Part shown: positions 2,012-21,611 of the stretch, piece after piece
How the letters are laid out: the number at the start of each line of letters is the position of its first letter
How positions within the stretch are numbered: position 1 is the stretch's first letter
Source: a virus
Virus record (IMG/VR): IMGVR_UViG_3300046488_000037
Coordinates: 1 to 23,970 of that record
Length of the DNA: 23,970 nucleotides
Strand: one strand, 5' to 3'
Notes under the pieces: generated by a model
Told to the model about the DNA's origin: nothing
The model's input: the letters and a program-made list of their open reading frames with translations, nothing else
Database searches by the model: none
Program-made: the position numbers and the translations under genes

Positions 2012-3507
2012 AGAACACCCACTCTTGTTGGCATGAGACTTCTCAATTTCGCTTCAAACGCTTTCGGATCAACCTGCTTGACGTAGTAATCCTGCGCCTC
2101 TTTGTTGAACTTCAAGTACCGACCATCACGAATGCTTCGGATCAGGGCCTGCTTGAAGTCCTTCATCCCGATGTTCATATTGAAGTTTCCGCAGTAGAGA
2201 GCTTCCACATTTGAGATGATGTTGCGGCCATTGATTAAAAACCGCCTGATCCCTTCATTTACCGTCGGATGAGCCTGGAAAGAAACCAATAACGAATACT
2301 TTGAAATGTCGGCTATCGGGTTCGTCTTGAAATTCAAATCATCAATCTGAATGTAAGGCAAGTCCTGTTTTATCGTCTTGAAGATCGGTAAGTAAGACTC
2401 ATCAATGTCCAGAAGAACACGGTAGGTGTCAGGCAACTTCGTTTCAGCGTCAATTACTTCGCTCGGAAGCGGAACAATCTCTGGAGGTTTCATCCCAACA
2501 AACTCAAATAGTTTGCCAAGACGCCTCTGCGAAACCAACTCGTTCACGAAATGATGGTCGACACACCCCTTCATCCTTTCGAGCATACCAACAGACTTCA
2601 AGAACCCGTAGTTCTCAAGCCCCGCAATGTCCCACGGCATCCAGTATTGGACACGAACACAATCTTTCGGAGCGCCGTCAAACCAAATGCTCTCGCCAAA
2701 CCCCAAATTAAAGGCCAACTTATAGTCATCCACGCGGAAGTCTAGGAACTGAGAGAAGTCGGCATTGAGCATCTTGGCAATGTGCAGACCCTTCATTCGT
2801 TCCATGGCAGACCCTACTACGATCTCCCGATGTGGAATGCCATGCTTATCACGAACTTTCCAATGCGTACTTCGGAAGTTTTCTGGATTCCACGCTTTCC
2901 CTGTAATGGAATCTGGATTGGGCGGTTCCGTGATGTATCCGAATCCTTCAATGAACGATCCCTTTCCTCCATTTTTGACAATCGTCAACCACATGTCCCA
3001 GTCCTGGGCTCCAATAAGCGATTCATCGAATCCTGGAAACAGTTCTCGCTTCATGGGGAAACTCGTGGCGATGAAGTTGTTGCATGTCAAAAGGTACGGA
3101 TCAAAAGGATACCCCGATATCCCATTGGAATGGTCCTTGAATTCGTATCCGGAATAAACGAAATCCGCATCCGTCGATTGGAATTCCTCAATCCATCGTT
3201 TCGCCATCTCCGGTTTGGCATAACAATCAGAATCCCAAAAAGACAAGTATTCGCCAATCGTCAACTTGGCCCCAGCATTTCTGGCTTTTGGAGCCCCACC
3301 ATGCTCGATCTCAAGGATCTTTTCAGGAGATGTGTACTTCCTGACGATCTCCAAGAGTTCGAGTTCCGGTGGCCCGTCAAAGACAGTAATGATCTCAATG
3401 CGCCTATAAGACATATCCCGAAGTGTTTTCAAACACCGTTCCAGAACGTCGGGAGCCGTTTTGTATATCGGGATGACAAATGAGATTAGCGGATCTTTTT
3501 TAGCCAT
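2008..3507 (-). CDS. Large family 2 glycosyltransferase with C-terminal extension
   Basis: 499 residues. Residues 1-220 form a GT2 catalytic domain: LISFVIPIYKTAPDVLERCL, IITVFDGPPE, APKARNAGAK, and the DXD-like motif in YLSFWDSDCYAKPE. A GAQDWDMWLTIV segment near residue 165 fits the acceptor-side 'ED' region of GT2 enzymes. Residues from about 225 to 499 are an extra region, far longer than a minimal GT2, with YWMPWDIAGLENYGFL in the middle and a C-terminal part (LLVSFQAHPTVNEGIRRFL, RNIISNVEAL) that looks like the donor-binding half of a GT-B enzyme. The protein may therefore be bifunctional. The ATG overlaps the preceding TAA by one base, and the end overlaps the next GT by ATGA. The two-domain reading is inference. 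Confidence 0.82.
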   Translation of the reverse strand: MAKKDPLISFVIPIYKTAPDVLERCLKTLRDMSYRRIEIITVFDGPPELELLEIVRKYTSPEKILEIEHGGAPKARNAGAKLTIGEYLSFWDSDCYAKPEMAKRWIEEFQSTDADFVYSGYEFKDHSNGISGYPFDPYLLTCNNFIATSFPMKRELFPGFDESLIGAQDWDMWLTIVKNGGKGSFIEGFGYITEPPNPDSITGKAWNPENFRSTHWKVRDKHGIPHREIVVGSAMERMKGLHIAKMLNADFSQFLDFRVDDYKLAFNLGFGESIWFDGAPKDCVRVQYWMPWDIAGLENYGFLKSVGMLERMKGCVDHHFVNELVSQRRLGKLFEFVGMKPPEIVPLPSEVIDAETKLPDTYRVLLDIDESYLPIFKTIKQDLPYIQIDDLNFKTNPIADISKYSLLVSFQAHPTVNEGIRRFLINGRNIISNVEALYCGNFNMNIGMKDFKQALIRSIRDGRYLKFNKEAQDYYVKQVDPKAFEAKLRSLMPTRVGVL

Positions 3508-16007: not shown

Positions 16008-16394
16008 TTAACGTGCGGAGTCATTGGCAGGGAATCGCCATTTAGCAAGTCGAGCCACGGCTTGAGCCTTTTGCTCAGGAGTCATAGACCGTTTACGTCG
16101 AGGAACTAGCCAATGGACGGCCTTATCATGGTGCGGTTCGGATACAAGTATCTTTTGTGTTTCATCTCCACCGCGAACATGAGAGTACGAGAAAGGCTTA
16201 GTACGTTCCAATTTTGGGAATACGCTATTCCTGATTTCCAAGGCAAGCGTAGATGGATTCTGAATATAGCACCAGCCGCGCCGTCCCCATAGTTCCCAAT
16301 ACCAATGCTTATCGGCTACGGGCTTTTCAAATTGCCATGACGGATCAAGCGCAACTTTGTACCGCTTGCCATACTGAGCCATTAAATCAATCAC
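16008..16394 (-). CDS. Phage protein of unknown function
   Basis: 128 residues. The start, QYGKRYKVALDPSWQFEKPV then WYWELWGRRGWCYIQN, resembles a small phage family with the pattern 'YG-x-R-[YW]-x-[VL]-x-L-D-x-S-W ... W-x-W-E-[IL]'. The C-terminal third is basic with a helix (SMTPEQKAQAVARLAKWRF). The GTG start overlaps the preceding stop codon (GTGA). Second gene of the minus operon that begins at 16570. No function can be assigned. Confidence 0.65.
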   Translation of the reverse strand: MIDLMAQYGKRYKVALDPSWQFEKPVADKHWYWELWGRRGWCYIQNPSTLALEIRNSVFPKLERTKPFSYSHVRGGDETQKILVSEPHHDKAVHWLVPRRKRSMTPEQKAQAVARLAKWRFPANDSAR

Positions 16395-16570
16395 GTTGTT
16401 TTTTCTCCGACGGGCGACGCGCTAGGATTCGATTTAACAGACTTTCCTAGAAGAATGAAACGTAAATACTCAGAGACACGTAGCCCACGGCTAGACGCTA
16501 GGCTCTTGATAGATTCGTTTTCCTTCGGAGATACTCGGATATTCAATTGGACGTTGCGTAGTCTTTCCAT
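16391..16570 (-). CDS. Ribbon-helix-helix DNA-binding protein
   Basis: 59 residues from ATG 16570. NVQLNIRVSPKENESIKSLA gives the N-terminal beta strand (alternating residues Q-N-R) and first helix. SRGLRVSEYLRFILLG gives the turn and second helix ending with the typical 'S-E-Y-[LI]-R-x-x-[IL]'. This is the Arc/CopG fold, which binds DNA as a dimer with the strand in the major groove. A longer frame from 16600 would start inside the promoter and is rejected. The predicted transcript starts at or next to the ATG, so the mRNA is probably leaderless. It is divergent from an HNH gene and is a good candidate to repress the shared promoter region. Confidence 0.75.
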   Translation of the reverse strand: MERLRNVQLNIRVSPKENESIKSLASSRGLRVSEYLRFILLGKSVKSNPSASPVGEKTT

Positions 16571-16605
16571 ATTCAATGTATAGCATACGTCTACAATCAT
16601 GTCAA
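16571..16605 (-). promoter_or_regulatory. Sigma70-type promoter for the minus-strand small-gene operon
   Basis: TTGACA (16605-16600), a 17-nt spacer, then TATACA (16582-16577). Only 6 nt separate the -10 box from the ATG at 16570, so the expected RNA start falls on the start codon and there is no room for a ribosome binding site. Its -10 box lies inside the sequence GCTATAC, which recurs at two neighbouring promoters. Confidence 0.75.
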
Positions 16606-18700: not shown

Positions 18701-18728
18701 ATAGGTTACAAATGGCATAGTAACCTAT
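18701..18728 (-). terminator. Inverted repeat at the end of the ATPase gene, probable terminator
   Basis: Minus strand: ATAGGTTAC, a 10-nt loop, then GTAACCTAT (perfect 9-bp arms), followed by CTTTTATG. The left arm includes the TAG stop codon of the ATPase gene. The stem has only four G-C pairs and the T-run is short, so termination may be weak; a protein-binding palindrome next to the possible origin is an alternative. Confidence 0.45.
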
Positions 18729-19909
18729 TCGTTACCTTTCGAGATAAGTTCCATAACGCTTCCATCTATCTTTCCTACCCACTCCAGCATCCAGATGGGA
18801 TGAGTTGTGGCCTTTTCCTTTCGCATTAAAATCAGGTCATCAGCCTCTAATCCTTTGAGGTGTCTGGTAAGATTTTCGCCATGGATTCGGATATCATCAG
18901 CCAATGACTCACGGCGGCATATACCGCGCTTCTGGATATAGGAAATGATCTTACGGCGTTCAATGTCCCACTTGTTATCAGTCATGTCCTGCACTAGACC
19001 TGGGAGCATATCTTCCACATATCGCAAACAAAGTGACGCTTCACGAAACGCATCTAGGGTAATTTCCTGCTCCCCTCGATCAACCGCGAACAGGATACAG
19101 AGCTTATGGATGGCTTCGTTTTTGAAGTGTTCAAAGAACGGACCTAAAAGCGGTAATGCCTTGTTTTCGCGCTCTGTGGTATCGACATACCACTTCGCTA
19201 GCTTCGCTTTTGCTTCAGGGGTATAGTGGAACACCTGCTCGATCTTCTTATACTCCCAAAGCATCTCAGAAAGAGCTTTGAACTTATCGCTGTTATGCGG
19301 CGGCGGTAACGCCATCGGAGCGTTTCCATTACCAACAAACGGAACCATCAGGAACCGCGCCAAAAACCCCGACATGGCTGATTGCTCCGCATCTTGTAGG
19401 GATTGCCGCAACCATTCCGGCGTGGTAGCCATCCCCATTGGAAGGTACGCATTTTTGACGGAGAGAACACCGTGTTTTATGGTACTGCGGGAATAGCATG
19501 GCTTACGGTAGAGGATTGTAAACAGCGATTTCAAAGACTCGTTATACTTCTTCCCCAACATATCAAAGAACGATTTAGCCTCATCGAAAATGAACAGGCG
19601 TATTGGACTTTTTGATAAGGACTGGAGAATCGCTTCGGATGTGAATTCAGCAGGGGCAGATCGTTCCGGATCAACTTGTTCAATCAGGTCTTCAACAATC
19701 GAAATGGCTGTGCTTTTATGGGACGACGACTTTCCAATAAGAACGACCCAGATATGCGGCGATATGTTCCATGATCCGGCTTCGACATAAACACACCGAG
19801 ACAGCGAAGCGGATATGGCTAGAAGGGCTCCCCATAATAGGAATGGGTCTGGGCAATCCGTGAACTCGTTGGCATACTCTAAGTACTTCTCTGTAAATCG
19901 CTCAGTCAT
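18725..19909 (-). CDS. DUF3987-like ATPase (phage replication helicase/primase-associated)
   Basis: 394 residues. ISPHIWVVLIGKSSSHKSTA holds Walker A (G-K-S-S-S-H-K-S-T, residues about 55-63), and PIRLFIFDEAKSFFDML gives Walker B with DEA. Further features typical of DUF3987 proteins are the N-terminal FLLWGALLAISASLSRCVYV, MGMATTPEWLRQSL and SGFLARFLMVPF (sensor and arginine-finger region). A winged-helix-like C-terminus follows (CRRESLADDIRIHGENLTRH). These proteins are related to the helicase parts of phage primase-helicases and are usually encoded in replication modules. It overlaps the preceding gene by 8 nt. No primase domain is present in this protein. Confidence 0.78.
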   Translation of the reverse strand: MTERFTEKYLEYANEFTDCPDPFLLWGALLAISASLSRCVYVEAGSWNISPHIWVVLIGKSSSHKSTAISIVEDLIEQVDPERSAPAEFTSEAILQSLSKSPIRLFIFDEAKSFFDMLGKKYNESLKSLFTILYRKPCYSRSTIKHGVLSVKNAYLPMGMATTPEWLRQSLQDAEQSAMSGFLARFLMVPFVGNGNAPMALPPPHNSDKFKALSEMLWEYKKIEQVFHYTPEAKAKLAKWYVDTTERENKALPLLGPFFEHFKNEAIHKLCILFAVDRGEQEITLDAFREASLCLRYVEDMLPGLVQDMTDNKWDIERRKIISYIQKRGICRRESLADDIRIHGENLTRHLKGLEADDLILMRKEKATTHPIWMLEWVGKIDGSVMELISKGNE

Positions 19910-20456
19910 TGGCGCAGGCCAAGAGCCGCGCTTTCAATTGAAACGCGATCATGTTGTGCATGGCCTGCGAACCGTCGTAAGGTTGCCGCCCTTCCTGCCA
20001 CCGCTTAATCTCGGATCGAAACGTCTGCCATGCCTCTCCTAGTTCTTTCCATAGCTGGGGGTGATACCGCTTAAACATTTTCCGATCTGACTTAGGGATT
20101 GCAAGGTGATAGCGTTCAATAGCGAACCGCGTCCAGATGATCTGCTCTGAACGGCGGTCTAAAACAATTCCATGTGTATTGCGCTGTGCTTTCTCCTCAG
20201 CGATTTCAAGGTTTTCTCGTGAATCTTCTAGTTTCGATTGGCAGGCGATAATCTTCGGGATCATGTCATCCAAGAAACGGCCTAACGCAATCTCGGCTCG
20301 ACGGTAAACCAACGTATCCGCCGCCATTTTGTCAGGAGACGATTCAAACTCTTGACGGCATTTGTTGCGGTTGGATTGCAGGGCCAGAAACTCGCGGCCT
20401 AGCGCGGACTTCATCGGGCAGATGTGCTCGAACTGTTTTTCTTGTGGTTCAGTCAT
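19902..20456 (-). CDS. Helical protein upstream of the replication ATPase, unknown function
   Basis: 184 residues, nearly all helical, with Arg, Lys, Glu and Gln throughout. MKSALGREFLALQSNRNKCR and SKLEDSRENLEIAEEKAQRN suggest a coiled coil in the middle. GGAGGGG stands 2-3 nt before the ATG. First gene after the pseudoknot leader and its promoter, so its expression is the most likely target of that leader. It overlaps the ATPase gene by 8 nt. It may be an ATPase partner such as a loader; this is only a positional guess. Confidence 0.65.
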   Translation of the reverse strand: MTEPQEKQFEHICPMKSALGREFLALQSNRNKCRQEFESSPDKMAADTLVYRRAEIALGRFLDDMIPKIIACQSKLEDSRENLEIAEEKAQRNTHGIVLDRRSEQIIWTRFAIERYHLAIPKSDRKMFKRYHPQLWKELGEAWQTFRSEIKRWQEGRQPYDGSQAMHNMIAFQLKARLLACAND

Positions 20457-20476
20457 ATCCCCTCCACGAAATAGAA

Positions 20477-20552
20477 CCCCGGAGCGTAGCTGTACCCTTG
20501 CGAGGTTGGACTACAACTCCGGGGAAATTGGATTCTAGATTGCAAGGGTACA
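20477..20552 (-). ncRNA. Structured leader: H-type pseudoknot upstream of the replication genes
   Basis: Two perfect inverted repeats interleave. On the minus strand: UGUACCCUUGC (20552-20542), CCCCGGAG (20524-20517), GCAAGGGUACA (20501-20491), CUCCGGGG (20484-20477). The first pairs with the third (11 bp) and the second with the fourth (8 bp), the topology of an H-type pseudoknot. The promoter at 20587-20559 predicts an RNA start at about 20552, the first base of the first stem. The fold ends 20 nt before the GGAGGGG-ATG of the gene at 20456. This suggests a regulatory leader. No known riboswitch or ribozyme consensus was recognised. Confidence 0.55.
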
Positions 20553-20558
20553 TAAGAG

Positions 20559-20587
20559 ATTGTTGATTACTTATGCACCGTTGTCAA
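20559..20587 (-). promoter_or_regulatory. Probable promoter of the replication operon
   Basis: TTGACA (20587-20582), a 17-nt spacer, AACAAT (20564-20559). The -10 box matches consensus at four of six positions. The expected start, 7 nt further on, coincides with the 5' end of the pseudoknot. A 24-bp repeat copy ends 5 nt upstream of the -35 box. Confidence 0.5.
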
Positions 20588-20591
20588 TGCC

Positions 20592-20615
20592 CGCCGTCAT
20601 ACTCGGGCAGGGGGT
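20592..20615 (-). repeat. Boundary repeat A, copy 1 (24 bp)
   Basis: Minus strand ACCCCCTGCCCGAGTATGAC plus GGCG, identical to 20770-20793 and 21588-21611. Here it encodes the last residues and the TGA of the gene at 20597-20770 and lies just upstream of the replication promoter. Confidence 0.85.
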
Positions 20616-20770
20616 AGGCGTTTCCATCCAGAAGTTAGATAGACTTCGCTTACTGTCGAGAGTTTTCCGTTAGGCCCCACGATCACGTACTGATGATGCG
20701 GCAGGGCGCGAACGACGGTGACGACGTTGCCGCCGGGGCCTTCCAGCCGTTCGCCTTTAAGGAGTCTCAC
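20597..20770 (-). CDS. 57-residue protein with GTG start, unknown function
   Basis: Start taken at GTG 20770, which closes a boundary repeat (20770-20793); a longer frame from 20809 would overlap the upstream gene and only add repeat-encoded residues. The protein, VRLLKGERLEGPGGNVVTVV then ALPHHQYVIVGPNGKLSTVS, is beta-rich and looks like a small SH3-like or OB-like barrel. Its last residues (LPPARV) are encoded by another copy of the same repeat (20592-20615). Function unknown. Confidence 0.55.
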   Translation of the reverse strand: MRLLKGERLEGPGGNVVTVVRALPHHQYVIVGPNGKLSTVSEVYLTSGWKRLPPARV

Positions 20771-20793
20771 GCCGTCATACTCGGGCAGGGGGT
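20770..20793 (-). repeat. Boundary repeat A, copy 2 (24 bp)
   Basis: Identical to copies 1 and 3. It begins with the last base of the TGA of the cytosine methyltransferase-like gene and its final bases are shared with the GTG of the next gene, so it fills the whole junction. Confidence 0.85.
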
Positions 20794-21371
20794 CATGGGT
20801 TGGCCTCAAAAAATGCCATAGCGAAATTGATAGGGCAAAGACTTAATACATTTGGGTCTCTAGATATTTCTTTTCTCTTTCCTATAGCATTTCCTTTAAC
20901 GAATGGGCTAAAAAGAATAGGCCTTTTTGGGAGGTTGAAATATCCCCAAAGAGCTGTGCGCTTGCTCATGTAGCCGCCATATTCGGCATGGGAATATTCA
21001 AAAACAGGCTTTCCCAAAAACCAAGGCAGAAACCCTGTCGCGGGATTTTCAAGCGCCCAAAATTTAAGGGGCATTGACCAATCCCCCTTCCATTGAGTTT
21101 TATTCTGACATTCCCAGATAATCCGCAAGCACTCTTTAACGAGTCGCATCCCTTCCATTAAGTTTCTTGGCGTTTTTGCTTTCGTTCTAGCCATCGAAAA
21201 ATGAGTACATGGTGGATTGGCAATGATTCCGTAGACGTTTGGCGGCGGGGTGTAATTCTCCACGCCGATTTCTTCCCCGATGATCCGAACGTCATAGCCA
21301 GCGTCACGGTATGGCTTAGAGTCAGAGCCTTCCTTAGCGCACAAGTGCAGGATGATCTTGTCAGAGTTCAC
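20793..21371 (-). CDS. DNA cytosine (C5) methyltransferase-like protein
   Basis: 192 residues from GTG 21371, whose AAAGGTGAGG ribosome binding site lies in a repeated boundary element; a longer frame from 21428 would overlap the upstream gene. IILHLCAKEGSDSKPYRDAG then YDVRIIGEE is motif I and the acidic residue. YGIIANPPCTHFSMART holds the Pro-Cys catalytic motif (P-P-C-T-x-F-S). FWALENPATGFLPWF is the E-N-P motif. This is a short phage form about half the length of a standard C5 enzyme, without a clear target-recognition domain. It may modify phage DNA against host restriction. Next to an amino-methyltransferase gene. Confidence 0.75.
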   Translation of the reverse strand: MNSDKIILHLCAKEGSDSKPYRDAGYDVRIIGEEIGVENYTPPPNVYGIIANPPCTHFSMARTKAKTPRNLMEGMRLVKECLRIIWECQNKTQWKGDWSMPLKFWALENPATGFLPWFLGKPVFEYSHAEYGGYMSKRTALWGYFNLPKRPILFSPFVKGNAIGKRKEISRDPNVLSLCPINFAMAFFEANP

Positions 21372-21587: not shown

Positions 21588-21611
21588 CGCCGTCATACTC
21601 GGGCAGGGGGT
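21588..21611 (-). repeat. Boundary repeat A, copy 3 (24 bp)
   Basis: Identical to copies 1 and 2. It starts at the last base of the TGA of the amino-methyltransferase and fills the intergenic space before the ribosome binding site of the 54-residue gene. Confidence 0.85.

Follow-up and report, generated by a model that had tools for sequence, protein, structure and literature searches.

A covarying pseudoknot leader at the head of the primase operon in a phage lineage

On comparative sequence evidence, the leader of the primase operon in a phage record from IMG/VR is a real, selected pseudoknot element, and its fold is well supported. The record is IMGVR_UViG_3300046488_000037, and the window analysed here is the whole of it, 23,970 bases. 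The preliminary description of this DNA had proposed that the replication operon is headed by a pseudoknot leader under selection, and the comparison agrees with it: the fold has been kept while most of its letters have changed. For its function we tentatively favour, with somewhat less than even confidence, a 5'-terminal translational control element of the primase operon, of the general kind found at T4 gene 32; we infer this mechanism by analogy. On the minus strand, read from 20590 to 20454, the order was promoter, P1 5' arm, loop L1, P2 5' arm, loop L2, P1 3' arm, P2 3' arm, spacer, Shine-Dalgarno sequence (SD) and ATG. The features of the leader and of the genes behind it were as follows.

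20582-20587, minus strand: -35 hexamer TTGACA, from the promoter scan; also kept in the homologous leader L002.
20559-20564, minus strand: -10 hexamer AACAAT, with a 17-nt spacer to the -35.
20551-20553, minus strand: AUG at the predicted RNA 5' end, its A at 20553, 6 nt past the -10.
20542-20552, minus strand: P1 5' arm, UGUACCCUUGC, from inverted repeat and comparison.
20525-20541, minus strand: loop L1, AAUCUAGAAUCCAAUUU, with the conserved AUC-n-AUC-nn-UUU.
20511-20524, minus strand: P2 5' arm, CCCCGGAGUUGUAG, from inverted repeat and comparison.
20502-20510, minus strand: loop L2, UCCAACCUC, rich in pyrimidines, as it is in all 7 leaders.
20491-20501, minus strand: P1 3' arm, GCAAGGGUACA, from inverted repeat and comparison.
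20477-20489, minus strand: P2 3' arm, CUACGCUCCGGGG, 1 nt downstream of P1.
20466-20476, minus strand: U-rich spacer, UUCUAUUUCGU, 11 nt from P2 to the SD.
20459-20465, minus strand: SD GGAGGGG, followed by AT and then the ATG at 20456.
20449-20553, minus strand: 34-codon open reading frame that opens at the 5'-terminal AUG, crosses the pseudoknot and overlaps the start of the first gene, with neither frame nor peptide conserved.
19902-20456, minus strand: first gene, 184 aa, shared with 5 of the other 7 records.
18725-19909, minus strand: DUF3987 DNA primase (phrog_14296, E = 2.1e-25), common to the operons of all 8 records.

The two perfect inverted repeats reported earlier, 20491-20501/20542-20552 (11 bp) and 20477-20484/20517-20524 (8 bp), were recovered, and they do interleave in pseudoknot order between the TTGACA promoter and the GGAGGGG-ATG of the first gene. 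P2 runs further inward (GUAG/CUAC), to 13 bp with one bulge. The 20 nt that had been given as the distance from the end of the fold to the ribosome binding site is in fact the distance to the ATG, and the SD begins after 11 nt. The TTGACA promoter described before, here read as TTGACA-17-AACAAT (minus strand, 20587-20559), was the sole promoter-like site in 20300-20800, where the shuffle mean was 0.4. The RNA start had been placed on the first base of P1. A start near P1 stands; the exact base does not, as the predicted +1 is 20553, about one base earlier.

The length and perfection of the stems had been taken to argue for selection. Selection was borne out, by way of the homologues; within the single sequence, the stems are modest evidence only. 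A stem-length sum of at least 20 was reached by 3 of 20 shuffles of the window, though none of the 20 had both stems (at least 11 and at least 8 bp), and the energy score of the leader was -42.8 vs. -40.9 for the best of 40 shuffles. The sequence alone lies only modestly beyond chance; proof of the pseudoknot is comparative.

Searches of IMG/VR with the primase, with the 184-aa first gene and with an L1 pattern yielded seven further records of the primase family (G001 to G007), and every one of them has the pseudoknot in the same position: L002 in G001, L004 in G002, L005 in G003, L006 in G004, L007 in G005, L008 in G006 and L030 in G007. With the window included, the 8 records hold 7 distinct leaders, L006 being identical to L005 and counted once; L003, L022, L026, L033, L154 and L171 are the L002 contig and were merged with it. 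All 7 leaders represent one phage lineage; every record of it here derives from metagenomes, and the RNA ends are predicted. Given an integrase gene in G005 (L157 8213-9364, minus strand; phrog_1, E = 6.3e-51), the lineage may include at least one temperate member. A gene for a Sak4-like annealing protein was seen in G001 and G005.

Searches of GenBank phages, by tblastn with the first gene and by distant blastn with the leader, returned nothing convincing. A protein search of bacterial genome contigs gave no relative, and a pattern scan of such contigs (118 stretches, 150 pattern places scored) gave no further member among the matches listed, where the best non-member besides L020 scored 13.0 vs. 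18.0-19.5 for members. L020, from an unrelated phage, resembles the leader in layout: near 3112-3191 (minus strand), among tail-like genes, a hairpin resembling a terminator, interleaved with a second stem, lies 10 nt before a GAGGGG SD and an ATG. These stems scored below other sites in their own stretch; they were judged to be chance and dropped. The distant primases of PaP2, vir526 and a Desulfofustis phage come after a DNA polymerase gene, and the pseudoknot scan was blank at the head of those genes.

Compensatory changes in homologous leaders, named in the preliminary description as the check on its fold, were found in both P1 and P2. On a MAFFT alignment (A6), P1 had standard pairs in 93.2% of cells compared to 72.4% in shuffles, both-sided changes at 8 of 11 pairs (shuffles averaged 3.6, and 0 of 500 were as high), and a covariation score of 0.602 (0.259 in shuffles). 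Slid controls on the same alignment were at most 46.6% paired. L030 is misaligned in P1 of A6, and its cells count against the structure. Structure-guided cross-pairing identified the leader's own arm as the best partner, in both directions, in 7/7 cases for P1 and 7/7 for P2. Eleven G-U pairs were used on the sense strand, 5 in P1 and 6 in P2, and the antisense stems were equal or weaker; the functional strand is therefore the mRNA. Across the members, P1 measured 11-13 bp, P2 12-16 bp, L2 8-10 nt and the P1-P2 junction 1-2 nt, within a pseudoknot of 76-88 nt whose stem energies ranged from -17.7 to -29.2 kcal/mol. In each of the 8 records this leader was the best-scoring pseudoknot on either strand (-42.8 to -51.2; runner-up -34.9 or weaker), and it was single copy among the sequence searched. 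Chance inverted repeats or a DNA-level element, a reading for which the 3 matching window shuffles speak, is contradicted by the compensatory changes and the sense-strand G-U pairs and is extremely improbable. A third helix between L1 and the spacer (UAGAA/UUCUA in the window, for example) could be drawn by eye in some members; it fails in L008 and L030 and was rejected.

The 184-aa product of the first gene matched no PHROG or Pfam family, and its AlphaFold model was all-helical with a pLDDT of 68. In G005 an unrelated 117-aa gene takes the place of the first gene. In G007 there is no first gene, and the leader directly precedes the primase. Because the first gene is replaced or absent in these two phages, the leader is tied to the primase operon of this lineage and not to the first gene. 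Autogenous control by the first-gene product (19902-20456), which had been suggested earlier, is weakened for the same reason, as the pseudoknot stays in both. The primase was the only candidate binding protein common to all records. Pfam family PF00436 (SSB) was detected in 0 of the 8 records, which may be fragments, by a model that need not detect gp32-like SSBs. The window also encodes, at 16391-16600 (minus strand), a 69-aa protein matching the Pfam NikA-like mobilisation protein PF21983 (E = 8.7e-11), here in a phage record.

Loop L1 reads AUC, 1-5 nt, AUC, 2-3 nt, UUU in 7 of 7 leaders; when L1 was shuffled, this motif, which was defined on these same sequences, appeared in at most 1 of 7 over 5000 trials. 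The distance from P2 was 10-15 nt to the SD core and 19-28 nt to the ATG (7 leaders). Promoters were scored with sigma-70-like weights, and the best one ended 7-10 nt before P1 in 5 of the 7 (the window, L002, L004, L005 and L030), so that the predicted RNA start near the base of P1 holds in those five. L007 had no recognisable promoter, and in L008 a lower-ranked candidate, the nearest -10, lay 15 nt before P1. A dyad over the -10 region, at 20543-20583 in the window (CATAAG...CTTATG) and at 2870-2900 in L002 (CATATAAG...CTCATATG), is possibly a repressor operator of the leader promoter; by eye, it was not seen in the other leaders.

All seven leaders carry a start codon at offset -4 to 0 from P1: AUG in the window, L002, L004 and L008, and GUG in L005, L007 and L030. 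When five-base windows were scanned across -60 to +79 (140 in all), the mean number of start codons was 0.71 and no other window attained 7, the offset range having been picked after the data were seen. A shuffle product of 1.3e-6 refers to offsets -3 to +1, which hold 6 of 7, and was not relied upon. In the five leaders with a promoter the first base of the codon is 6-9 nt past the -10, and the codon would therefore sit at the RNA 5' end. Short open reading frames of 14-45 codons run from it into or through the pseudoknot. A leader peptide was considered and rejected: the start codon is conserved, but frame, peptide and stop vary.

We propose that the mRNA of the primase operon would start at the base of P1 and fold into a very stable pseudoknot, which would act at translation initiation of the operon. 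With the fold in place, the SD would stay open and the start codon at the 5' end would be buried. The folded RNA would be recognised via L1 by a factor, the likeliest candidate being a protein from the phage's own replication machinery; once bound, this factor would cover the adjacent ribosome site, and an excess of the protein would then lower expression, as in the logic of T4 gene 32. In T4 and RB69, the gene 32 mRNA has a pseudoknot near its 5' end, upstream of an accessible SD, with a conserved fold and a drifting sequence, and the T4 protein nucleates on the pseudoknot and covers the ribosome binding site (PMC535899 and PMC3014915, accessible portions). What the leader shares with it is a pseudoknot that precedes the SD in the mRNA of a phage replication gene. 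The differences, as far as the same portions describe T4, are those of size (a pseudoknot of about 28 nt in T4, 76-88 nt here), of the RNA before the start (more than 40 unstructured, UUAAA-rich nt in T4, 19-28 nt and no UUAAA repeats here), and of the partner: the T4 element is bound by the SSB gp32, its downstream product, whereas the present leader heads a primase operon with a conserved L1 and no SSB found. Several of these points argue against an operator of the gene 32 type. Its natural candidate, the first gene, is missing or replaced in two phages and no Pfam SSB was found; the spacer from P2 to ATG is much below that of T4; and the conservation of L1 could instead stem from tertiary contacts inside the RNA or from a small molecule.

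No conserved alternative pairing was found, which favours a stably folded element over a switch. For the SD-sequestering or alternative pairings L2:P1b, P1a:SD, L2:SD and P2a:SD, the leaders' own arms were no better than swapped ones: of 5040 permutations, the fraction with a mean no higher than that of the own arms came to 0.24, 0.33, 0.91 and 0.80, compared to 0.0002 for the P1 control, and 895 of 2000 L2 shuffles were equally good. Nested minimum-energy folds do offer pairings that hide the SD, but the comparison gives them no support. A riboswitch-type expression platform with conserved anti-SD switching was thus tested and is unsupported.

The conserved codon at the base of P1 suggests another hypothesis, that of a leaderless start. 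Ribosomes would begin at the 5'-terminal AUG or GUG, translate the short reading frame across the pseudoknot and terminate close to the first gene; P1 folding and translation of this frame would be mutually exclusive and would set operon expression. The position of the codon in 7/7 leaders and its distance from the -10 in the five with a promoter fit this, and there is a precedent in E. coli, where 5'-terminal AUGs on SD-leadered mRNAs bind 70S ribosomes and some of them affect the downstream gene (PMC4965119, accessible portion). The present leaders would resemble those mRNAs in placing an AUG at the 5' end of the RNA, ahead of an SD-led gene. They differ from what is described of them in that portion in that a pseudoknot has the AUG or GUG at its base, and their RNA ends are predicted. 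Against a leaderless start stand the post hoc choice of the offset window, the lack of a conserved frame or peptide over 14-45 codons, stop-free runs in other frames that are not clearly shorter, and the stop in L030, far upstream of the gene. We consider it unlikely. A wider form of the idea, distinctly unlikely in our judgement, is a hitherto undescribed phage RNA family with a 5' start codon in the pseudoknot base, where leaderless initiation and folding would compete and a factor at L1 would tip the balance. If this were true, competition on the nascent transcript would decide the amount of replication protein, and L1 would be the site of a phage or host factor.

A rather unlikely explanation is that the leader would protect the 5' end. 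P1, placed at +1, would pair the triphosphate end and hide it from RppH and RNase E or from RNase J, and the pseudoknot would stabilise the mRNA with the SD kept open and no ligand needed. The start of P1 at 7-10 nt past the -10 in 5 of 7 leaders, the stem energies, and the lack of support for competing pairings all point this way. The conserved unpaired L1 is left unexplained by it, however, one might expect a general stabiliser to recur at other operons while the leader is single copy, and L007 and L008 do not have the promoter spacing (no recognisable promoter in the former, P1 15 nt past the nearest -10 candidate in the latter).

That L1 forms part of the binding site of a small-molecule riboswitch, of the H-type pseudoknot kind, would account for its conserved unpaired bases and for a pseudoknot upstream of the SD. 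We regard it as very unlikely, since there was no Rfam match, the SD-sequestering alternatives went unsupported (the fractions of 0.24-0.91 above), the stems look too stable for switching, and the SD lies outside the fold. A transcription attenuator, with P2 as terminator hairpin modulated by P1, is highly unlikely. GC-rich P2 is followed by a U-rich stretch, most clearly in L030 (UUUGUUUUU), but in most members the U run is interrupted and starts some nt past P2, so only L030 fits well, and the loop of P2 spans some 20 nt or more. A terminator scan was blank at P2, weak evidence from a scan that allows loops of 3-8 nt only.

Among other known leaders, timP mRNA also links a leader pseudoknot to translation initiation; its pseudoknot forms between stem-loops SL1 and SL3, with a sequestered ribosome binding site and an antitoxin RNA (PMC11228461, accessible portion). 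The present fold does not include the SD, and the scan of 20300-20800 gave no promoter on the plus strand. This promoter result also led us to reject antisense RNA control. The pseudoknots of IncI-alpha repZ and IncL/M repA depend on a leader peptide and an antisense RNA, neither of which the present analysis supported. As is proposed here, a pseudoknot in those systems controls a replication gene (PMC10724649, accessible portion). A leader pseudoknot controlling a replication gene is thus a known kind of element. The STAXI motif is a pseudoknot RNA that has an Rfam family. It resembles the leader in lying near DNA-handling genes and differs in that, in the accessible portion of PMC2864571, it is described in tandem copies, the leader being single copy and having no match in Rfam. 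An HDV-like ribozyme was rejected on the 8-10 nt of L2, the 1-2 nt P1-P2 junction and the lack of an Rfam match. Such a ribozyme needs P3 and P4 helices and a catalytic joining region within the P1/P2 double pseudoknot.

The earlier impression that the leader matches no known ribozyme or riboswitch was upheld by Rfam 15, with 0 matches in the window at gathering thresholds; a scan of 20400-20640 gave only chance-level matches (LhrC and ceN39), both scans covering one of the seven leaders, that of the window. The published literature searched, with most subscription papers outside the search, held no description of this element. As far as these literature and Rfam searches go, the family, its size, the L1 motif and the codon at the base are apparently new. 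A 2010 paper regarded the gp32 pseudoknot as perhaps unique among viral pseudoknots in serving translational autoregulation (PMC3014915, accessible portion). The present leader would add another, unrelated phage pseudoknot leader, larger, with strong covariation, placed at a replication operon, and with a start codon, which was not expected, where the RNA is predicted to begin. How phages adjust the amount of their replication proteins could be tested on it, and it seeds an RNA family absent from Rfam 15 as searched.

Upstream of the promoter, an exact 23-nt repeat (CCCCCTGCCCGAGTATGACGGCG, minus strand) was observed at 20592-20614, 20770-20792 and 21588-21610 of the window and once in G001 (L154 7597-7619); 3 of these 4 copies come directly after a TGA stop. 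Past the last repeat, promoter and leader are homologous between the window and G001. Between or beyond the repeats lie DNA methyltransferase genes in the window or a Mom-like DNA modification gene in G001, and the repeat looks like a point at which cassettes of DNA modification genes are exchanged.
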